DNA from: Methanosphaera sp. ISO3-F5
Lineage (GTDB): Archaea; Methanobacteriota; Methanobacteria; Methanobacteriales; Methanobacteriaceae
DNA length: 64,000 nucleotides
Reading direction: 5' to 3'
NCBI RefSeq assembly: GCF_034480035.2
Contig: NZ_CP118753.2
Span: forward strand, 1,065,210 to 1,129,209
This document shows, piece by piece, positions 43,555 through 57,863 of this stretch. The notes under the pieces are model-generated. The model searched no databases. It was not told where the DNA came from and saw only the letters and a list, made by a program, of their open reading frames with translations. How positions within the stretch are numbered: position 1 is the first letter of the stretch; every line of letters begins with the position of its first letter. Position numbers and translations under genes: made by a program.

Positions 43555-44484
43555 ATGACAGACATAATACAGGAAATATTTGACAAAATACAATACTTAG
43601 AAACAGAACAATACAAAAACATGACAGTAACAGCAATAAACATACCAGACAACAACATAGACCTAATGCCACTAGAAATAGGATTAAACATGGGACTAGT
43701 AGAAATAACAGAACTAGACGAACAAGGAATAGTAGGAGAAGTAAAAGTAACAAACAAAGCAGTAACACCACTATTACTATTAGACGGAGAAGAAATAATA
43801 GGATCCAAACAAAACAGGATAATAAACTCAACAATAATAATACCACCACAAAGCGAAAAAAACATACCAGTAAGCTGCGTAGAAGAAGGAAGATGGAGCT
43901 ACAAAAGCAAAAAATTCAACTACTCAGACCACATGGCAACAAGCCGAGTAAGAAGAAACAAACAAGAAAGCGTAACACAATCACTAAGAGCACAAAATAA
44001 TTACAAATCAAACCAGGCAAGAGTATGGGATAACATAAGAGACACAATAAACAATCTAGACATAACAAGCGAAACAAACGCATTACACGACACATACAAA
44101 CAAAGAATAACAACAATAGAAGAATACAAAAAAGCATTCAAAACACAAGACAAACAAAACGGGATAATAGTATACATCAACGGTCAACTAGCAGGACTAG
44201 AAATAATATACAACAAAACAAGATACAACCAGTACCATGAAAAAATAATAGAAAGCTACATAATGGACGCAATACAAACAACAGAAGAAAACAATACAAA
44301 TGAAATCACACAAGAACAACTAATACAAAAAATAATAGAAACACCACGAGAAAACTATAATCCAATAGGATTAGGAAATGACTACAGATTAGAAGATGAT
44401 GAAATAATAGGAAGCATAATCACATACGAAGAAAAACTAATAAATGCCTCAATATTCAAAAAAACAGAAGAAAATATAATATAA
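43555..44484 (+). CDS. ARPP-1 (DUF6569)-like protein
   Basis: Residues about 15-130 match the DUF6569/ARPP-1 pattern: AINIPDNNIDLMPLEIGLNMGLVEITEL, LLLLDGEEIIGSKQNRIINSTIIIPP and IPVSCVEEGRW. About 180 residues of helical sequence follow, with a second small sheet (GIIVYINGQLAGLEIIYN). Stand-alone members are uncharacterised; the family was named for its links with ARG and rhodanese-phosphatase proteins. A strong site (GGGGGAGGTGG) precedes the ATG. It is downstream of HIRAN and directly upstream of IS copy 2. Confidence 0.7.
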   Translation: MTDIIQEIFDKIQYLETEQYKNMTVTAINIPDNNIDLMPLEIGLNMGLVEITELDEQGIVGEVKVTNKAVTPLLLLDGEEIIGSKQNRIINSTIIIPPQSEKNIPVSCVEEGRWSYKSKKFNYSDHMATSRVRRNKQESVTQSLRAQNNYKSNQARVWDNIRDTINNLDITSETNALHDTYKQRITTIEEYKKAFKTQDKQNGIIVYINGQLAGLEIIYNKTRYNQYHEKIIESYIMDAIQTTEENNTNEITQEQLIQKIIETPRENYNPIGLGNDYRLEDDEIIGSIITYEEKLINASIFKKTEENII

Positions 44485-44535: not shown

Positions 44536-45793
44536 TAGCCCCCTTGATAAAAATGTAATTTTTTGAGAGCAATAAAACCTTGTTTTTTTAATTTTTTTAT
44601 AAAAATAGTTTTGAATTTTAATAATACATATGTATTATCTTTTATATTAGTAAAAAAGAGTCATTGTATACTAATATTTATATACAATGAGTTACATATA
44701 TTATATTGGCGATTACATGAAACTTCATTTGTATTTTAGTAAACAAGACTCTAATTATAGTATGTTCAAAGAAATATTTAATTTTATCGATTCTAAAAAA
44801 AGTAGACAAATTATTGCTTCATATGGTATAAAACCAATTGAAACATTTATAAATGATTTAAAAATCCATTTTTTAAGCTTCACATACAATTATGAAGTAT
44901 CATTTATCCTGGATGAATTAAAAAACAATTCACAATTAAGAAAATTTTGTAACATTTCTAAAATTCCAAGCTTAAACTCCATAATTACTCGTTTATCTAA
45001 AATTAACATAACAACCATTGTTAATTTAGTAAACAGATTATTAAGAACTAATTTTACACGTAAACACAAAAAAAGATTAACTTTCTTAGTTGATGCAACT
45101 CCCGTAGATGTTGATATGAATTTCTTAAGATCAACATATAGCAAGAAATATCTAGAAAAATTAGATTTAAAATGGTCATATTCATCCTCCAAAGGACATT
45201 ATATCGGTTATAAAGTTACCATGGTATTAGAAAAAGAATCATTAACTCCTGTAATGATATTAATCCACCAAGGAGCACCCCACGATTCAAAATTATTCAC
45301 AGAAATCATGGAACAACTAAAAAAATCAAGAATAATACAACCATTAGACATATTACTCTTTGACAAAGGATATTATAGCTATGAAAACTATCAAAAAGGC
45401 ATATTAGACTATAAAATCATACCATTAATCTTCCCAAAAACAACCTTCAAAAAAGACAAACTCATGACATATTTACACTACCCACTAGAACTATTTAAGA
45501 AAAATAAAAGAAATAATAAAATAAAAAAGTTATTAAAGAAAGCTACTAATAAATTAATCAATTTAATTAAAAAAATGGAAACAATATAAACCAATACGTG
45601 GCTATATTGAAGATTTTTTTAAAGTATGCAAACAAGCATTCAATATGCATAAAATACACAAATACACAGTCAATTCATTCACAAAAGACATCTATCTAAG
45701 AGTATTATTAATAACCCTCGCAGTAAACCAAACCACTAAGACAAAAACAGCACTACAAAAGCTCAGTCAAAAGTGATCTTATCAAGGGGGCTA
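44536..45793 (+). mobile_element. 1258-bp insertion sequence, copy 2
   Basis: It has the same ends and the same length as copy 1, but the opposite orientation. Flanks are AATATTT on both sides (44529-44535 and 45794-45800), a 7-8 bp target duplication at an AT-rich palindromic site. The near-identity of the two copies means the pair arose recently. Recombination between them would invert the 40 kb that lie between. Confidence 0.9.
44717..45776 (+). CDS. DDE transposase of IS copy 2, in two frames
   Basis: Its first-frame protein sequence is identical to that of copy 1. The first frame stops at 45589 after ...KKMETI. The frame with the catalytic Glu (RGYIEDFFKVCKQAFNMHK) runs on to the TGA at 45774-45776. 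The frames overlap at seven A (45569-45575). Since the change is shared by both copies, the element must transpose with this sequence, either by slippage or by help from another copy. The start at 44717 has GGCGAT upstream; ATG 44687 is less likely for the reasons given for copy 1. Confidence 0.8.
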
Positions 45794-47709: not shown

Positions 47710-47997
47710 TTATTGTACCTTGTATACCTGGTACCTGTATGTGTTTTCTTTTTTGTAATCTGTTTTGTTTCTTCCAAATTTGCTTGTTATTACATATATT
47801 TCATCTCCACTTTGTAGGGTAATTCTTTGTTTTCCTACTTTTTTATGTATTAGACGTGCTATCCTCCATGAGCCTATATTACTTATTGCTTCTTTTGTGT
47901 TTCTTAGTAGTATGCTTTTCTTAATTTTCTTTGATATTATTTTATATTTTTTCTTTTCAAACATTCTCATTGAAAAGTTGTCTGATACGTATATCAT
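47710..47997 (-). CDS. DUF1874 (STIV B116/AcrIII-1)-like protein lacking the catalytic His
   Basis: The 95-residue protein has the family frame: MIYVSDNFSMRMF at the start, ISNIGSWRIARLI in the middle and KQRITLQSGDEIYVI near the end. At the position of the GH motif of ring-nuclease members it has GS, so the active-site histidine is missing. It probably keeps the fold and may bind a ligand or its neighbour. AGGAGGA precedes ATG 47997. It lies 14 bases after its paralogue. Confidence 0.65.
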   Translation of the reverse strand: MIYVSDNFSMRMFEKKKYKIISKKIKKSILLRNTKEAISNIGSWRIARLIHKKVGKQRITLQSGDEIYVITSKFGRNKTDYKKENTYRYQVYKVQ

Positions 47998-48011
47998 ATT
48001 ATTTTTTCCTC

Positions 48012-48290
48012 CTATTTTATTATGCATATTTTACGGTAATCGTAGCACTGTTTGTGGTCTTCGTCATGGCATATTTGCACAAAGTATAGTATGTCATCTA
48101 CTTCTAGTTGTATGTTAATCCTGTTTTTTTCTATTCCCAGGTGTTCTGCTATGCTGTCATGTCCTATTGAACTAATTAGTTCGTCTTTTTGTTCCTGTAT
48201 TTCATCCAGGCTTGAGTCTTCTATGGTGAATGTTAATTCCATGTTTGGATTTAACATTTTTGGACTAAATCCATTTGATACGTATTTCAT
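48012..48290 (-). CDS. DUF1874 (STIV B116/AcrIII-1)-like protein
   Basis: The 92-residue protein shows MKYVSNGFSPKML at the start, SSIGHDSIAEHLGI in the middle and KNRINIQLEVDDILYFVQI at the end. This closely follows the family that includes the viral ring nuclease AcrIII-1, which degrades cyclic tetra-adenylate and disables type III CRISPR signalling. The His of the SIGHDS motif corresponds to the catalytic residue. Host-encoded members also exist. It is the first gene of a three-gene operon. No CRISPR array or cas gene is in the window. The family call is fairly secure; the activity is inference. Confidence 0.75.
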   Translation of the reverse strand: MKYVSNGFSPKMLNPNMELTFTIEDSSLDEIQEQKDELISSIGHDSIAEHLGIEKNRINIQLEVDDILYFVQICHDEDHKQCYDYRKICIIK

Positions 48291-48751: not shown

Positions 48752-48904
48752 TCAGATGTTAACACCCCCTGAAGTAATGTTTACTCGTTTTATAATTGTT
48801 GTCATCGTTTTTTTCCTGGTTATTAGTGTTATGCTGTGTTTCTGGGATTTATATCTTTTTTCTATTTTCAGATTTTCATAAACTTCGATGTATGTATTTT
48901 TCAT
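48752..48904 (-). CDS. 50-residue basic small protein
   Basis: An ATG at 48904 with GAGGTG five bases upstream opens a 50-residue frame (MKNTYIEVYENLKIEKRY to NITSGGVNI). It is basic, with no signal peptide or membrane segment. A promoter-like TATA (about 48980-48987, minus strand) and an inverted repeat lie upstream, which supports a real, regulated gene. I do not recognise it; a small DNA- or RNA-binding protein is possible. It is divergent from the hsdS-like operon. Confidence 0.5.
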   Translation of the reverse strand: MKNTYIEVYENLKIEKRYKSQKHSITLITRKKTMTTIIKRVNITSGGVNI

Positions 48905-48919
48905 CATATCACCTCAACA

Positions 48920-48946: not shown

Positions 48947-49251
48947 CACTGCGTAATATACACTTTGACCGAAGTAGTATATAAAGGTTTCTGTATGTAA
49001 CAATTATTTACAAAATAATTTGATCATAATTAATCCTATATAATAAAATCAAAAAAATTCTAATAAGCTATAATATACTGAAATAACTGGTTAAAATCAA
49101 ATATTATAATTCAATAAAATAAAAAGTAATTATTTGTTAACTCCATATATATTATAGAAAGTAATCAAAAACTAAAACAAACATTTATATACTAACAACA
49201 TAATAATTATATGTATGTAACATAAACTTATACAGGAGGGAAAATAAGTAT

Positions 49252-49833
49252 ATGCAAACACAAAAATACCAACTAAAAGAAATAGCAACCATCATAACAG
49301 GACTACCAATACAACGATACACAGACAAACCAGACTCAATACCACAACAAATCATAAGCAACATGTCAAAATACGAAATAGACGAAGAATTCACAACAGA
49401 AGAAGTCTACATAGCAGATGACATAAAAAAACAGTTCTTATCAAAAGAACATGACATACTATACAAAGTACAGCAACAAAGCTTCGCAAAAGAAATCACA
49501 ACAGAAACAGGAATAATCATACCAAACACATACCTAATAATACGAGTAGACCCAACCAAAGTAAACCCAACCTACCTAGCAAACTATCTCAACAACCCAC
49601 AAATAGAATACGAAATAACACGACAAATAGAATCCACAAGAATACTAAAAGTAAACACAGGAATACTCAAAGAACTAACAATAATACTACCAGACAAAAA
49701 AACACAAGACAAAATAGCAACATTATCAATAAAAATAAACCAAAGAATACAACTCAAAAAACAATCAATGGAAGCAGATGAACAACTAATTAATTCATTA
49801 TATGATAATGTAATAGGTGATAACTATGGATGA
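49252..49833 (+). CDS. single-TRD HsdS-like DNA specificity protein
   Basis: The 193-residue protein begins YQLKEIATIITGLPIQRYTDK, the start of a type I specificity-subunit target recognition domain, and ends with ELTIILPDKKTQDKIATLSIKINQRIQLKKQ, the conserved helical spacer. Normal HsdS has two such halves (about 400 residues); this is one half, so a dimer would recognise a symmetric site. GGAGGG precedes the ATG and a TATA box lies at about 49180. The next gene overlaps by 8 bases, so expression is coupled. Confidence 0.8.
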   Translation: MQTQKYQLKEIATIITGLPIQRYTDKPDSIPQQIISNMSKYEIDEEFTTEEVYIADDIKKQFLSKEHDILYKVQQQSFAKEITTETGIIIPNTYLIIRVDPTKVNPTYLANYLNNPQIEYEITRQIESTRILKVNTGILKELTIILPDKKTQDKIATLSIKINQRIQLKKQSMEADEQLINSLYDNVIGDNYG

Positions 49834-51085
49834 ATTTGAAAGAAGAATGAGACGAATCGTTATTCCAGGAAGAAACATAAACCCAGAACATATGCCTTTT
49901 ATTACAATGAAATACTTATCAGATAAACAAGAAGAAACAATAAACAAAAACGAATTCCTAAAAAAATATGGTTTTCTCTTCAGAGACTATGAACTATTAT
50001 CAAACATAATAGAAAAACAGGAAGAAGAAGATGAATCCTACATATCAGACATAAAAAGTTCAATAATAGCACTAAAAAATAGTCAAAACAAATATATCAA
50101 AGAAGTATACTCTAAAATAAACGAAGATAACCTAAAAAAAGAATTCCTAGATGACGTACTAAGCATTTTAAACACAGATTTAAATCTATTTAACATAGCA
50201 ATAAGAAACAAATACCGTAGAGGAATGACACAATCTCCACTAAAGTTATACAAATTAATGGCAGATATTGCAACATCAAATCATAAAGTGTCAAAAGTGT
50301 ACGATCCAACATGTCATGAAGGACTAAGCATTACTTCATTAAAAGAATTTGACAAGGCAACATTATACGAACAAGACGAAGAAAAATACACACAAGCAAT
50401 ACAAAACTTCATAGTAAACGACATACCACTAGAAAAAATCAGCATAACCAATAAGGAAGTATTAATAGATGAAGATGAAACAAAATATGATACAATAGTA
50501 TCATTACCATTTTTAAATACTCAGAGAAAAATAACAGAATTTACACAAGATAAATACTCTAAATACAAATCAAGAAATCCTCTTTCACTTTATCTACTAA
50601 ACTTAATAGAACACCTAGATGAAACGGGCTTATTAATCACCACAATTACTCAAGATATCCTAGTAAGAAAAGATGCACAAAACTTAAGAAAATGCCTAAT
50701 AGAAAATAACCTACTGGATGCAGTATTCGAGTTTGAAGGCATAAGAGGATTTAATGAATTAGTAATAATAATCAATAAAAACAAAAATACAGAAGATGTA
50801 CTGTTCATAAAAATACCCCAACACAATGTGTTAAGATCTATTCGTGAAAGAAGAATAGTCAAATGTTTTATGGATAGAAGTATAATAAAACGTTTCAGCA
50901 ATGTAGTGTCCAAAGAAGAAATAATCAAAAATGAATACAAGTTATTACCAAAACGATATGTGTACTCATTAAAATACGAAACATGTAGCATAGAAGATGT
51001 AAAAACACAACAAGAGGAATACACAGAAGAGATACGTAAACTTGATGAAGAAATAGGTAAATTACTGGAAGAGTTAAAGGAATAG
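49826..51085 (+). CDS. degenerate HsdM-like N6-adenine methylase, probably inactive
   Basis: The 419-residue protein is laid out like HsdM: an N-terminal helical domain, a linker RGMTQSPLKLYKLMADI (as in RG-x-FYTP in active enzymes), then a methylase fold. Motif I reads YDPTCHEGLSI where DPxCGxG is expected, and motif IV reads VSLPFLN where NPPF/Y is expected. The catalytic Asn and first Pro are thus lost. It probably cannot methylate DNA but may still bind SAM or the S subunit. ATG 49826 follows GGTGAT and overlaps the hsdS stop. No HsdR is present. Confidence 0.78.
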   Translation: MDEFERRMRRIVIPGRNINPEHMPFITMKYLSDKQEETINKNEFLKKYGFLFRDYELLSNIIEKQEEEDESYISDIKSSIIALKNSQNKYIKEVYSKINEDNLKKEFLDDVLSILNTDLNLFNIAIRNKYRRGMTQSPLKLYKLMADIATSNHKVSKVYDPTCHEGLSITSLKEFDKATLYEQDEEKYTQAIQNFIVNDIPLEKISITNKEVLIDEDETKYDTIVSLPFLNTQRKITEFTQDKYSKYKSRNPLSLYLLNLIEHLDETGLLITTITQDILVRKDAQNLRKCLIENNLLDAVFEFEGIRGFNELVIIINKNKNTEDVLFIKIPQHNVLRSIRERRIVKCFMDRSIIKRFSNVVSKEEIIKNEYKLLPKRYVYSLKYETCSIEDVKTQQEEYTEEIRKLDEEIGKLLEELKE

Positions 51086-51114
51086 TTGAAAATATATTAG
51101 AATTTTATGATACT

Positions 51115-52917
51115 ATGCAAGAAGAAGTAATTATTAATAAAATAGATAAAAATATTGTAAAGTTAGGAAATATCGAGGAAAAACAGGAATTGATGGCAGA
51201 TAGCTTACAGAACAAATACAACCAGCTATCAAAAACTGTGGGGAAAATACATCAAAACGTTAAAAGCCAAAACAACAGATACTCACAAATAATGGAAAAC
51301 CTAAAAGAAATAAAAAACAATATAGGCAAAGAAAGCACTGGAAACATAGAAGACAAGCTTGAATTAATAATACAACAACTAGAAAAACAAGAAACACAAC
51401 CTCAATATAATCAAGTGGAAAAAACAAGCAGTACTGTAATGCTTAATTACAAGGAGTATATGTACAAATGGTTTAATAAAAACCTGAAAATAACAAAAAA
51501 CCCTCATAACGTAATAGACATGGAAGAACTAAAAACTAAGATAGACAAACACTTCGAAACAGAAGAAGAACATACAATAGACCTCTCAAAAATATATAAT
51601 CGACTGGAAAGCTACCTAAAATACTGGTATAACCAACATAATAACATTATAAGCTTTGAAGACATAATCAATACAAGTCTAAACAACAATAAATTATACT
51701 CCTATATAAAATTCATAGACATAAAAGAAGAACGAGAAAACAGGATCAAAAACACAATAATAGCCTGGCTAAAAGAATACACCTGTGAAGTAGAAGGAAC
51801 AAGAACATACACAGAGGACATACTAAGAAATATTCAGCCATTATTCGAAGAAAACGGTTGGATAATTACCACTCCTGAAGAATACTCTCAACTACAGGAA
51901 GCAGGATTTACAAAGGTATGTGTAAAAAGAACATTCAGCCAAATAATAGGGAAGGCAGTACAGGATTACTACAGCCACATAACCAAGGACACAACACAAA
52001 GAGACACACCAGGAAACGGACATGTAACATGGTATCCAAACATAGAAATAATAGACAAAAAAGCATCAGACACTCTACAAATAAAAATTAAAGATGAACT
52101 GACAAATGACATCTTCGACTCAGACAATAAAATATGCAAGTGGCTTAACAAAAACCTAAAATACACGGGAAATAGTGATGATAAAATAAAAAGGGAAACA
52201 CTCCAGATACAGTTACGTCAATACCTTAAAGAAGAAAATTCAATGATTTCGGAAGATACATTGCAAAGATTGTTAAACATTATGCTGGATAAACTTGGAG
52301 AAAAATATAATACAAAATATGAGGATAGTACTGGAATATTAAGCAGTTTTACCATTATACATGAAGAAGATATGAAGGGAATCATAACAAAATGGGTGGA
52401 GTGTCATCTTGAATATACTGGAAACCCTGAAGACATAGTATCAGTTGAAGAGTTGAACGAAAAGTTACTGACAACATTATACAAGAAAAACATCACAATA
52501 ATAAAAGATGACCTATATCAACAAATACCAGAACAACTAAAAAACAACTTCACAAAAGAATATGAATATAATGAAACAGTAAACAAGATACTTCAACAAG
52601 AAGTACAAAAATATGATAAGAAAAACGAAAATATAATAGGTGCTAGGTTAATACAGTACAAAAACCTAAAACAAGAAGACATAACAAAATGGGTAAACAA
52701 GAACATAGAACAACTACTAGAAAACAACATATCCAACAAAAAAACAATACTAAACAACTTCAACAAATACCTGACACAAAACAACACAAGAAACAACACA
52801 AACCAAACACTAGAACAACTACTAGACGAAGAAATACAAAAACACTACACAAAACAAAACATTACACTTAAACTACTAAAAGACAACCAAGACACATACT
52901 ACGCACTAATCAACTAA
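51115..52917 (+). CDS. coiled-coil protein with five KW-x-NKNL repeats
   Basis: The first ~95 residues are a coiled coil. After that, a unit recurs about five times, starting near residues 115, 213, 341, 424 and 524: KWFNKNLKITKNPHNVI, IIAWLKEYTCEVEGT, KWLNKNLKYTGNSDDKI, KWVECHLEYTGNPEDIV and KWVNKNIEQLLENNI. Each is followed by a helix with LxxxLxxYL-type spacing. The pattern W-x3-L-x2-T-x-N-x2-D-x-(I/V) resembles the winged-helix domain at the C-terminus of phage/plasmid primase-helicases, so DNA binding is plausible. I do not recognise the whole protein. It is 29 bases after the dead methylase gene and very probably in its operon. Confidence 0.7.
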   Translation: MQEEVIINKIDKNIVKLGNIEEKQELMADSLQNKYNQLSKTVGKIHQNVKSQNNRYSQIMENLKEIKNNIGKESTGNIEDKLELIIQQLEKQETQPQYNQVEKTSSTVMLNYKEYMYKWFNKNLKITKNPHNVIDMEELKTKIDKHFETEEEHTIDLSKIYNRLESYLKYWYNQHNNIISFEDIINTSLNNNKLYSYIKFIDIKEERENRIKNTIIAWLKEYTCEVEGTRTYTEDILRNIQPLFEENGWIITTPEEYSQLQEAGFTKVCVKRTFSQIIGKAVQDYYSHITKDTTQRDTPGNGHVTWYPNIEIIDKKASDTLQIKIKDELTNDIFDSDNKICKWLNKNLKYTGNSDDKIKRETLQIQLRQYLKEENSMISEDTLQRLLNIMLDKLGEKYNTKYEDSTGILSSFTIIHEEDMKGIITKWVECHLEYTGNPEDIVSVEELNEKLLTTLYKKNITIIKDDLYQQIPEQLKNNFTKEYEYNETVNKILQQEVQKYDKKNENIIGARLIQYKNLKQEDITKWVNKNIEQLLENNISNKKTILNNFNKYLTQNNTRNNTNQTLEQLLDEEIQKHYTKQNITLKLLKDNQDTYYALIN

Positions 52918-53195: not shown

Positions 53196-56100
53196 ATGAA
53201 AACTATAAGTAAGTTCTTAATATTTACATTAGTTTTACTATTAGCTTGTCTGGGAGTAGTATCAGCAACAGGTAATGTTACAGATACAGCAGATTCTCAG
53301 GACAGCACACATAATAGTGACATTCAAACCTACAGCGTATTGGATGATAATATTCAAACTAATAGTAAAGTATTAGAGAAAAAATATGAAAAAAATAAAA
53401 CACTTAAACAGGCAGGACGTACAATAACAGTTACTAACAAAACCTTTGACACATACTTTAAACAGTCCAGTGAAGATGAATTTCCAAGCAGTACCAGTCT
53501 TATACAGGATGGTGACACAGTAAACCTTAAAGGTTCATTCAAAAACTGTAATTTTGCAGTGGATAAGCATATAACATTCACTAGTCTTAATAAGGATGCC
53601 AAACTATATGATAGTACAGTATTTGTATTAGGAGATAAGGCATCAGGGTCAAAGATAACTAACCTGAACATATTCAATAATGGTACTTTAATCAGGGGTA
53701 TTCAGGTAAAAAATGCATCAAACATTGTTGTGGAAAATAACACTATAAAAACGTTAGGCTTAAGATCATATGGATTTGTAGCAGATAACATGAACCATAG
53801 CAGTATACGTTTTAACAGTTTTGAACGAGAAGGTGATGATTGGAGATATATCACATTCCTAATCGGTAAATGTTACTATAATAACATTGCAAACAATACT
53901 ATCCGATGTGGAGGAGCAAATGGTATATACCTGAGTATTTATGGAAGTATAGATGCTAAATTCGAAGCAGGACCAAGTGACTATAACAACATAACAGGTA
54001 ACAATGTAACAGCTCGTGGAGACATCACATCATGGTGTTATACAATACAAGTAATGGGAGGAAATAACAGAATAACCCATAACACAGTAAATGGTGGATT
54101 CAGGGGAATTTCAACCCAGGACTATGAAAACAATATAATCACATATAATGATGTGCATGCAATCAATGAAGGAATATACGCCTGTGAAGGAGCAGTAGTA
54201 TCAAACAATAATGTTCATGTAACAGATACTTCATATGGTATAACAATCGGCAGTGACAATGTACAAGTAAAAGACAATACAATCAAGTCATTAAATGGTG
54301 CAGGTATCGAAATAAGGGGAAGCAATGCACAGATAACAGGTAACACTATCATATCAGAAAACAGTACTGGTATACATTCCAAGGGAACCTATACTAACCT
54401 AATCATTGACAACAATAAAATAAACAGTAAAGAAGAAGGAATACTCTTCAAACAGCAATCTAATACAAAGAAGATTAATCACATAATGGTTACACGTAAC
54501 ACTATCACAACAGATGCAGAGTACGCAGTAAACCTTGAAGAAACAGGATCACAATATGATGCAGACGTAAACGTAACAGTGACAACATCCAACGTATTAA
54601 CCGCAAATAAGCTATCAGGAATGGAAGCATATAAAAAGCCAGTTAATGCTAATAGTAATACTGACCGGGACACGAATCAGGTAATAACAGTAACCGATAA
54701 TAACTATAACACATGGTTTACTGATGGAATCCAGAAAAGCAGCATAAAACAGAATGCAACCGTAAACCTTGAAGGAACATTCAAGGACAAATCATTCACA
54801 TTCAACAAGAAAGTACACATTACTGGTAAAAACTGTGTAATACTTGATGGAACAATTACACTCACAGGTGATGCACACGCTTCAACAATAAACAGTATAA
54901 CAATAAGAAATAAGGCACATAATACAACAGTACATGGTATAGAATTAATAGAAGTGAACAATTGTCGAATAACAAACACAAAAATAGACAATTATGCAGA
55001 ATATGAAAGCCTGGGAATATTCCTATACGGATCAAACGGTAACATAATACAATCTAACACATTAACAACAAGTGGAGACTATGTTAACAATGGAATACTC
55101 ACATACTCCTCAGATTCTAACAAGATAGAAGACAACCGGATAAACATTAACCAATCCGGAAAACCAGTAGCATATGCTGATTCAATAATGTTCAATGAAA
55201 GAATAGGAACAATACAGGAAGTACTGCATAACCATGGAATAATATTATTATACTCCTCTGGCAACAACATTAATAAAAACACTGTGACCGGAACCTCAGA
55301 ATTCAAGAAGTATACATTCCCAACTAATGATTGCAGAAACAGTATAGTGGGAATTGACTTATACTTTAACTGTAATGACAACCGTATAACAGAAAATAAT
55401 ATAAACATTAATGGTTACGGACCATACAATTATGGTATGGGAGTACTAGGAGGACAATGGGGAACATCAATATACTCAGTAAACGCATCCAACAACCAGT
55501 ACATAAGCAACAATGTTACATTAACAGGGGGATACTTTGCAACAGGATTCATAGCAGGAAGAAACAGTGCACAGACCATAATAAAAAACAATAACATACG
55601 AGTAGACGTGTACAAGCAAGGAACAAACAGAGGAGACTATGCACATGGAATCACACTAGAAAACAGTACAACATCAACAATCACAGGAAACAACATTTAC
55701 CTAACAGCATCCTCAATATACAGCATAGAACTATTCGATTCAGGAAACAACAAAATAATATCCAACAACATACAGGCAAATGGAACATACCCATATGGTA
55801 TAGCAGGAACAAGAGCAATCAACAATGAAATACAAAACAACACAATAATACTAAAAGAAGAAAACATGGGACCAACCAGCCAGGCAACACACTCCGAGTC
55901 AATAGAATCAGGAAAAGAAGGAATAATGCTGACACAAGAAAGCACAAACAACATAATCACATACAACACAATACACACAAACACACAAAACACAATAAAA
56001 CTAGAACAACAAACAAGAAACAACCAAATAAAAACAAACTCACTAGTATCCAAGACAGGCACAGGAGACAAAACAGTAAACAACAAGGGAACAAACAACA

Positions 56101-57863
56101 TAACAAACAACTTCCAATACTTCACAAACATAACAACCACTCCAATAACAGCCAGGATAGGAGACACAATCACAATAACAGCAAACATACAAACAACCAC
56201 AAACAAACAGGAAAACCTGACAGTCACATACAAACTAGGAACCAATAATATAGGATCAAGCAAAGTAAACAACGGAAAAAGCACACTAAAATACACCATA
56301 CCAAACCTGTACAGGCCAACAACATACCAACTAACAATAACAGTAACAGGAAACAACTTCCAAAACCAGACAACAACAACAAGAGCAACATTCACAAAAC
56401 AAGCAGAAAAAATAAACATCAAAGTAGCACGAACACTACAACAGATAGGATACAAAGCACAACTAACAGCCAACATAACAACAAGCACAGGAGGAAAAAT
56501 AAGCACAGGCGAAGCAACATTCTACCTTGACAACAAAAAACTAAAAACAGTAAACGTAACACTAGGAAAAGCAAGCACCAACTACCAGATAAGCAGTAAA
56601 GCAAAAAGTGGAGTACACACAATAAAAGTAACATACCATGGAACAAACGATTACCAGAAAGCAGAAGCAACAAACATACTAGGAATACAAACAAAGACAA
56701 CAATAACACTAAAAACACACACAACAAAAATAGGAACAAAAGCACATATAAAAGCAACAATAAAAACAGGAACAACCAAAGTAAAGTCAGGTAAAGCAAT
56801 AATCTACATAGGAAACAAGAAAATAGCAACCACAACAATACAAAATGGAAACATAAACCATAACTACACAATACCAACCACCTATAACAAGGGAACATAC
56901 AACCTGAAAATAGTATACAACGGAAATCACACACAAACCCCGGCAACAAACACAACAAAAATCAAAATAAACGGAATAACACCAGTATTCAAGTACACAA
57001 CAACAAAAGTAACAATAGGAAAAACAGCAAAACTCATACTAAAAATAAGTAACGGAAAAACAGGAAAAAACAAGTACAATGCACAAAACGGAAGCATAAC
57101 CATAAAACTAAACGGTAAAACACTAAAAGACAAAAACGGAAAAACAATCACAGGAACAGTAAAAAATGGAACAATAACCATAAAATTCACAGCACCAGAA
57201 CAACTAAGCGGAAAACAAAACATAACATTCACATACAAAGGAAACAACAAATTCACAACACTAACCAAAACATACAAGAACGGACTAATCATAAACAAAA
57301 TAACAACCAAACTAACAGTAAACAAAATAAAAACAACAAAATACGGCAACAAAATAACAATCACCGGAACACTAAAAGATGCAAACAACAAGATACTAAA
57401 AAACACCAACATAAAAATCAAACACAACAAGAAAACAATAACAGTAAAAACAAACACTAAAGGAATATACAAGTACACAACCACCACCAATACAGTAGGA
57501 AGCAACAACATCACAATAACATATCCAGGCAACAAGAAATACCAGACAAAAAGCATAAAAACAACATACAAGACAAGCAAACAAAACACAAAAATAACAA
57601 TAAACAAGATAAAAAACACAAAAAATAACAAAACCATAACAATCAAAGGAACACTAAAAAGTGCTAACGGAAAAACACTAACAAACACGAAAATAAAAAT
57701 AAAAACAAACAATAAAACCGTAACAGTAAAAACAAACAATAAAGGAGTATACACATACAATTATAAACCCTATAAAAGAGGCACATATAAAGTAACAGTT
57801 AGTTTTATTGGAACAAAAAATTATAAAGCAAATAATAAAGTTGTAACATTTAAAGTCTATTAA
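53196..57863 (+). CDS. adhesin-like secreted protein: beta-helix plus Ig-like repeats
   Basis: The 1555-residue protein starts with a signal peptide (MKTISKFLIFTLVLLLACLG to VSA). Residues about 60-1000 consist of two right-handed beta-helix sections with NosD/pectate-lyase-type turns (NNTI, SNNN, NKITNN), each introduced by a similar unit (ITVTNKTFDTYF and ITVTDNNYNTWF). About 1000-1555 are tandem Ig-like repeats of 75-90 residues (for example GTLKDANNKILKNTNIKI, TKGIYKYTTTT, GNKKYQTKS). It has no C-terminal membrane helix and no Cys anchor. Surface binding to pseudomurein or host glycans is inferred from the family. The second half changes sharply to A/C-rich codons. Confidence 0.85.
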   Translation: MKTISKFLIFTLVLLLACLGVVSATGNVTDTADSQDSTHNSDIQTYSVLDDNIQTNSKVLEKKYEKNKTLKQAGRTITVTNKTFDTYFKQSSEDEFPSSTSLIQDGDTVNLKGSFKNCNFAVDKHITFTSLNKDAKLYDSTVFVLGDKASGSKITNLNIFNNGTLIRGIQVKNASNIVVENNTIKTLGLRSYGFVADNMNHSSIRFNSFEREGDDWRYITFLIGKCYYNNIANNTIRCGGANGIYLSIYGSIDAKFEAGPSDYNNITGNNVTARGDITSWCYTIQVMGGNNRITHNTVNGGFRGISTQDYENNIITYNDVHAINEGIYACEGAVVSNNNVHVTDTSYGITIGSDNVQVKDNTIKSLNGAGIEIRGSNAQITGNTIISENSTGIHSKGTYTNLIIDNNKINSKEEGILFKQQSNTKKINHIMVTRNTITTDAEYAVNLEETGSQYDADVNVTVTTSNVLTANKLSGMEAYKKPVNANSNTDRDTNQVITVTDNNYNTWFTDGIQKSSIKQNATVNLEGTFKDKSFTFNKKVHITGKNCVILDGTITLTGDAHASTINSITIRNKAHNTTVHGIELIEVNNCRITNTKIDNYAEYESLGIFLYGSNGNIIQSNTLTTSGDYVNNGILTYSSDSNKIEDNRININQSGKPVAYADSIMFNERIGTIQEVLHNHGIILLYSSGNNINKNTVTGTSEFKKYTFPTNDCRNSIVGIDLYFNCNDNRITENNININGYGPYNYGMGVLGGQWGTSIYSVNASNNQYISNNVTLTGGYFATGFIAGRNSAQTIIKNNNIRVDVYKQGTNRGDYAHGITLENSTTSTITGNNIYLTASSIYSIELFDSGNNKIISNNIQANGTYPYGIAGTRAINNEIQNNTIILKEENMGPTSQATHSESIESGKEGIMLTQESTNNIITYNTIHTNTQNTIKLEQQTRNNQIKTNSLVSKTGTGDKTVNNKGTNNITNNFQYFTNITTTPITARIGDTITITANIQTTTNKQENLTVTYKLGTNNIGSSKVNNGKSTLKYTIPNLYRPTTYQLTITVTGNNFQNQTTTTRATFTKQAEKINIKVARTLQQIGYKAQLTANITTSTGGKISTGEATFYLDNKKLKTVNVTLGKASTNYQISSKAKSGVHTIKVTYHGTNDYQKAEATNILGIQTKTTITLKTHTTKIGTKAHIKATIKTGTTKVKSGKAIIYIGNKKIATTTIQNGNINHNYTIPTTYNKGTYNLKIVYNGNHTQTPATNTTKIKINGITPVFKYTTTKVTIGKTAKLILKISNGKTGKNKYNAQNGSITIKLNGKTLKDKNGKTITGTVKNGTITIKFTAPEQLSGKQNITFTYKGNNKFTTLTKTYKNGLIINKITTKLTVNKIKTTKYGNKITITGTLKDANNKILKNTNIKIKHNKKTITVKTNTKGIYKYTTTTNTVGSNNITITYPGNKKYQTKSIKTTYKTSKQNTKITINKIKNTKNNKTITIKGTLKSANGKTLTNTKIKIKTNNKTVTVKTNNKGVYTYNYKPYKRGTYKVTVSFIGTKNYKANNKVVTFKVY

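Follow-up and report, generated by a model that had tools for sequence, protein, structure and literature searches.

A type I methylase-like locus of Methanosphaera, predicted to recognize a fixed DNA sequence but neither mark nor cut it

Among the closest described counterparts of the locus considered here is the "type one and a half" methylase M.AhdI, an M2S2 assembly in which a dimer of half-HsdS subunits directs methylation of the palindromic sequence GACN5GTC (PMC2878638). Half-HsdS dimers have been likened by Bower et al. to transcription factors with split palindromes as their targets (PMC6158711). We analyzed a 64,000-nucleotide stretch (the window, which starts at chromosome base 1,065,210) of the chromosome of Methanosphaera sp. 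ISO3-F5, a methanogen from sheep rumen (PMC11008217) with a genome of 2,680,162 bases on two replicons. An ORF check of the window found three consecutive intact open reading frames, designated S, M, and R, at the coordinates first given for them. The locus resembles M.AhdI in encoding an HsdM-like protein beside a half-size HsdS with one target recognition domain (TRD); however, M.AhdI methylates its site and has a partner endonuclease (PMC2878638), whereas M has broken catalytic motifs and no gene for an endonuclease was found. The type I enzymes EcoR124I and EcoKI share with the locus the HsdM fold and homology to HsdS, but the locus lacks HsdR, has one TRD instead of two, carries broken M motifs, and has a TRD that is conserved rather than variable. 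HsdM relatives in complex with an S subunit also occur in the non-canonical type I methylase PacII_M1M2S (7vru, 7vs4), where two different M subunits are active; here there is a single type of M, inactive by motif. No earlier report of such a dead S-M locus was found in the literature searched, which consisted of journal papers, subscription titles making up a small part. We propose, with a probability of roughly 0.57, that in this locus a type I methylase has been stripped down to a predicted sequence-specific DNA-binding complex that is probably regulatory.

A half-HsdS paired with an HsdM-fold protein that lacks the catalytic Asn

The S gene (49252..49833, + strand) encodes a 193-aa protein whose best match to Type I specificity profiles (PADLOC, 1.2e-15) covers one TRD, or half of the profile; the match to Pfam Methylase_S fell under the cut-off. 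S is therefore a half-HsdS, the single-TRD specificity protein that the sequence-only reading had described, and lacks the two TRDs of a type I HsdS. As in M.AhdI-type systems, it lies next to an HsdM: the start of M overlaps the end of S by 17 bp, and the two genes overlap in all nine loci of clade A, the group to which the window belongs, which is found in nine of 20 Methanosphaera genomes with S and M side by side in each.

The 422-aa M protein (49817..51085, + strand) matches Pfam N6_Mtase (1.7e-18), and a structure search with its model (mean pLDDT 85) found solved HsdM proteins (3lkd, E 5e-19), so that profile and structure agree with the family assignment made earlier by eye. The model retains the predicted HsdM fold, including the C-terminal helix expected to contact S. 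Alignment to intact HsdM proteins of the same family shows DPTCHEGL in place of DPTCGSGS at motif I (50303..50326, + strand) and S-LPF in place of ANPPF at motif IV (SLPF, 50501..50512, + strand), where the catalytic Asn is missing. Thus M has the fold of a gamma-class N6-adenine DNA methyltransferase without the NPP[YF] motif IV. The loss of the first Gly of motif I and of the Asn of motif IV recurs in 9/9 clade A proteins; the claim that both motifs are broken accordingly extends to every orthologue, none of which has the intact SAM and catalytic motifs of a type I HsdM. A search of viral sequences found no relatives of M. Between M of ISO3-F5 and that of the same-species contig L032 (genome G061), 10 of the 19 amino acid differences fall in residues 333-345 (window 50813-50851), next to a part of the model with low confidence.

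METTL14 of the METTL3-METTL14 RNA methylase is a known case of a methyltransferase fold that lost catalysis and was retained to bind nucleic acid. It resembles M in this respect; unlike M, for which no active partner is known, it supports an active one.

The absence of HsdR, first remarked on at the locus itself, holds across the genome of ISO3-F5, where a profile search returned zero matches to HSDR_N (PF04313). The same profile had no match in G005, G009, and G013, clade A carriers with incomplete genomes. Nor does the ISO3-F5 genome encode a second HsdM, the sole other match to M being a negligible fragment (E 0.07).

Conservation of the pair and occurrence of the Asn-less state in further groups

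S and M are adjacent in every clade A genome and never separated, and both frames are open in all nine. Across seven other Methanosphaera species (nearest pair left out), identity to the window proteins is 60-68% for S and 43-50% for M. For ISO3-F5 and L032, dN/dS is 0.20 for S, 0.46 for M, and 0.09 for R; neighboring genes give 0.02-0.15, below the value for M. Coding changes in S and M are thus mostly synonymous per site. The S-M linkage, the frames that are open in all nine genomes at 43-50% identity in M, and the conservation of S argue that the pair consists of selected genes rather than wreckage, as had been supposed when simple decay was first discounted. Clade A is missing from the remaining 11 of the 20 Methanosphaera genomes, some of which are incomplete. 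Whether all three genes stay together was put forward at the outset as a check: the S-M pair does, in 9/9 genomes, whereas R stands behind M in only 4/9.

Profile searches with S and M across the order revealed three more groups in the family, making the phenomenon wider than the sequence-only reading had envisaged. In the genus g4 (40 loci fetched; M of 552-569 aa), the motif IV Asn is replaced by K, R, E, or H; in the genus g10 (10 loci; M of 605-634 aa), by Q or E; and in clade B, a second Methanosphaera group (6 loci; M of 477-489 aa), by H. A half-HsdS gene lies at most 134 bp away in every g4 and g10 locus and in four of the six clade B loci. The NPPF Asn is likewise missing from M in the single loci L019, L020, and L023 and in one in L123. 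No HsdR was seen beside g4, g10, or B pairs in the loci that were read more widely, most fetched loci being short. In g10 and clade B the change in motif I affects mainly the last Gly, and these two groups may still bind SAM. The g4 pair is flanked by hemC-linked genes and aspartokinase, and the g10 pair by idsA and a pyrophosphatase-like gene (names assigned by eye from sequence); these consistent positions point to vertical inheritance. The dN/dS of g10 M is 0.19. In 27 of the 40 g4 loci (L107, L108, L110, L124-L155), an ARPP-1 gene abuts the dead M gene at its 3' end or overlaps it there. Conserved inverted repeats of other kinds occur upstream of S as TTTTGGN7CCAAAA in 14/40 g4, CTTAN4TAAG in 10/10 g10, and TTCATAN6TATGAA in 4/4 clade B loci, a conservation that may reflect relatedness.

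S is the better conserved protein in each of the four groups, exceeding M in 98-100% of within-group comparisons, with identities for S/M of.66/.51 in A,.65/.56 in B,.76/.66 in g10, and.67/.48 in g4; the TRD alone is 65-79% identical within groups. Other half-S/M pairs of the family show the reverse, with identities of 27% for S and 52% for M and with S ahead in 5% of comparisons, in a small and mixed set of 11 pairs (one locus entered twice; motif IV intact in seven, non-NPP in four). The higher conservation of S in every group suggests that recognition has been kept and catalysis given up, which supports the core of the earlier proposal that the complex reads DNA without modifying it; the faster evolution of M could partly reflect relaxed constraint. 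Restriction systems diversify their TRDs, whereas those of these four groups are held fixed within each group. TRDs of different groups are unrelated (21-24% identity), and each group should therefore read a site of its own.

Each M group forms one branch with 100/100 support. In the M tree, g10 is nested among intact HsdM proteins and A is joined with g4 on long branches; an AU test of a single clade for all four groups did not reject it (p 0.40). The S tree places the TRDs of some groups among intact half-S proteins, with modest support.

Neighbors of the pair: R, the DUF1874 genes, and the region between them and S

R (51115..52917, + strand) encodes a 600-aa protein that starts with a coiled coil and continues with about five winged-helix-like repeats. 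The description of five such repeats stood in part: the sequence shows five repeat starts of the form W-[FLV], and repeats 1, 3, and 4 are alike well above shuffles (z 5.9-8.1), but repeats 2 and 5 are so only weakly. A low-confidence model (pLDDT 67) shows a recurring helix-strand-strand-helix pattern, and single units gave weak matches to winged-helix proteins (Foldseek probability up to 0.90, no E <0.001). Neither profile searches nor Foldseek placed R in a family with confidence. Of the four clade A copies behind M, that of G015 (L035 5244-7739) is split by a single TGA; R of G015 and of L039 also have ~200 extra residues at the N-terminus. Searches of the rest of the order gave only spurious matches, among them distant ones in g4, which were rejected as secreted Asn-rich proteins matched by composition. 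With R present in 4/9 loci and nowhere else in the order, we rejected it as a core partner, and the suggestion that the third protein serves as effector or bridge was not borne out; R is most likely an accessory gene, added or lost by some lineages.

The constant neighbors of the pair, overlooked in the sequence-only reading, are instead a DUF1874 gene pair and an array of operator-like repeats. The DUF1874 genes lie in tandem upstream of S, are transcribed divergently from it, and are present in 8/9 clade A loci, where they are 55-76% identical, including loci whose wider gene order differs. One encodes a 92-aa DUF1874/STIV_B116-like protein (48012..48290, - strand) that matches PF08960 above the cut-off (4e-8) and aligns with SIRV1 gp29 (AcrIII-1; 2x4i) with an E of 9e-10. 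Its His44 aligns with the catalytic His in the SIGHDS of 2x4i (Ala in 6scf), and it retains the residues aligned with the AcrIII-1 active site. The other encodes a 105-aa paralogue (47710..48027, - strand), which by sequence comparison has no catalytic His. DUF1874 includes the AcrIII-1/Crn2 ring nucleases, which degrade cyclic tetra-adenylate (cA4), the messenger of type III CRISPR immunity (PMC7293037). The 92-aa protein is like these enzymes down to the catalytic His, but its gene is paired with that of a paralogue lacking the His, adjoins HsdS/HsdM, and is not accompanied by type III CRISPR: no Cas10 palm domain was found in the ISO3-F5 genome, so a type III source of cA4 is lacking there. 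The pair had no PADLOC match, and no DUF1874 gene was found at the g4 and g10 loci in the stretches read.

Among 13 PF08960 matches in the genus, eight adjoin clade A, four adjoin other HsdM genes (G008, with intact HsdM; G001; G002; and G061, with HsdR), and one adjoins a gene for a TIR-like protein. The five loci outside clade A are also tandem pairs, with HsdM/HsdS, HsdR (L191), or the TIR-like protein (L190) as neighbors. In L190 (G001:C61) the tandem pair directly precedes the gene with the TIR-like start, outside any HsdS/HsdM pair.

Comparison of repeats between S and the DUF1874 genes identified an operator-like TGTATGTAACA at 49212..49222 (+ strand), ~28 bp past the start of a TATA-like TTTATATA (49184). 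The motif thus occupies the position where transcription of S is predicted to begin, as it does in six further clade A loci. A second operator-like TGTATGTAACA (48992..49002, + strand) adjoins the TATA-like box for the divergent transcript and is overlapped by TGTAAN7TTACA (48996-49012); ORF comparison suggests that this transcript may open with a weakly conserved 51-aa frame (48752..48907, - strand). Copies of the consensus TGTADGTAACA stand at about -29 to -40 and -218 to -261 from S and, inverted, at -276 to -320. Upstream of S in 9/9 loci there are 22 matches with at most one mismatch against ~1 expected, a count that describes rather than tests, the motif having been derived from these very sequences. 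As a genome-wide target both motifs were rejected, neither being enriched over its control: exact TGTADGTAACA occurs 11 times versus 10, two of them here and eight of the other nine inside genes, and TGTAAN7TTACA at nine sites versus 21. The array looks like a dedicated local control site and a candidate operator.

Several other features of the surroundings were recorded. An ARPP-1 gene (PF20208) lies at window 43555-44484, and one is found 1-6 kb from S in 4/9 clade A loci. Between ARPP-1 and an aldo-keto reductase gene, a DDE transposase gene (window 44687-45589) is absent from the corresponding place in L032, where the gap is 181 bp versus 1447 bp, and appears to be a recent insertion. Downstream of the S-M-R locus lies a gene for a 1555-aa adhesin-like protein (window 53196-57863); large adhesin-like genes adjoin S-M in L033, L036, and L038 too, although such genes are common in Methanosphaera.

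Possible roles of the S-M pair

The conserved recognition subunit and the broken motifs suggest that a restriction-modification system has been pared down to the reading of a fixed DNA sequence, which it would neither mark nor cut. Its ancestor would have been a type I methylase with a half-HsdS, from which restriction and methylation were lost while sequence recognition was retained. By analogy with M.AhdI, we infer that S and M assemble as M2S2 with two identical half-S subunits, and this complex would close like a clamp around a fixed bipartite site in DNA, probably a palindrome, and leave it unmethylated. With a divergent DUF1874 pair and an operator-like array between, the clade A complex would most likely act as, or together with, a local regulator or sensor. 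A broader version is doubtful: that dead HsdM/half-HsdS, reading a fixed site, forms a module coupled to a DUF1874 signaling pair outside CRISPR, catalysis having been lost several times in gut Methanobacteriaceae and each group having a different fixed target.

A regulatory DNA reader has to be weighed first against a defense sensor, in which the dead S-M would spot a site in invading DNA and signal through the DUF1874 pair, sometimes with R, as a new anti-virus system. The degradation of an immune messenger by AcrIII-1/Crn2 relatives (PMC7293037) and the HsdM/HsdS, HsdR, or TIR-like neighbors of the five other DUF1874 pairs in the genus speak for it. We nevertheless think it unlikely: the genome has no Cas10 to make cA4, a fixed TRD is unusual for defense, PADLOC does not match the DUF1874 pair, and the g4 and g10 loci sit amid metabolic genes with consistent neighbors and no DUF1874 in the stretches read.

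It is improbable that M is still a methyltransferase, acting through an unusual, e.g., m4C-like S-x-P-F, catalytic motif or with another subunit. Its fold is kept overall, and the S-[LVI]-P-[FY] of clade A does resemble the SPPY/SPPF motif of N4-cytosine enzymes; however, in other groups a Ser directly precedes the catalytic position (SHPPF, SQIPF, SKLP), and clade A has therefore most simply lost the Asn. The first Pro of motif IV is gone as well, as is the first Gly of motif I in clade A.

That the locus is a slowly decaying type I remnant without present function would fit the missing HsdR, the elevated dN/dS of M relative to its neighbors, and the patchy occurrence of clade A, but seems very improbable given intact frames in nine genomes at such divergence of M, the better conserved S, the conserved operator positions, and the same state in three other groups. 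A decoy or dominant-negative complex, sitting on sites and so blocking or modulating a restriction enzyme, whether the cell's own or that of mobile elements, could find targets in other Methanosphaera, where type I systems retaining both HsdR and intact motifs occur, but is scarcely credible in ISO3-F5, which has neither HsdR nor another HsdM to modulate.

For the regulatory DNA reader, then, the parts of the original interpretation that concern the broken motifs of M, its linkage to S, and the absence of simple decay have stood, and the role given to the third protein has not. If it is correct, parts of a restriction-modification system have been turned into a stable DNA-reading device, in which recognition was selected and the chemistry lost. 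Dead S-M pairs occur in many gut methanogens, organisms in which gene regulation is little known, and the DUF1874 ring-nuclease family, so far associated with viruses and type III CRISPR, is now tied to methylase-like loci.
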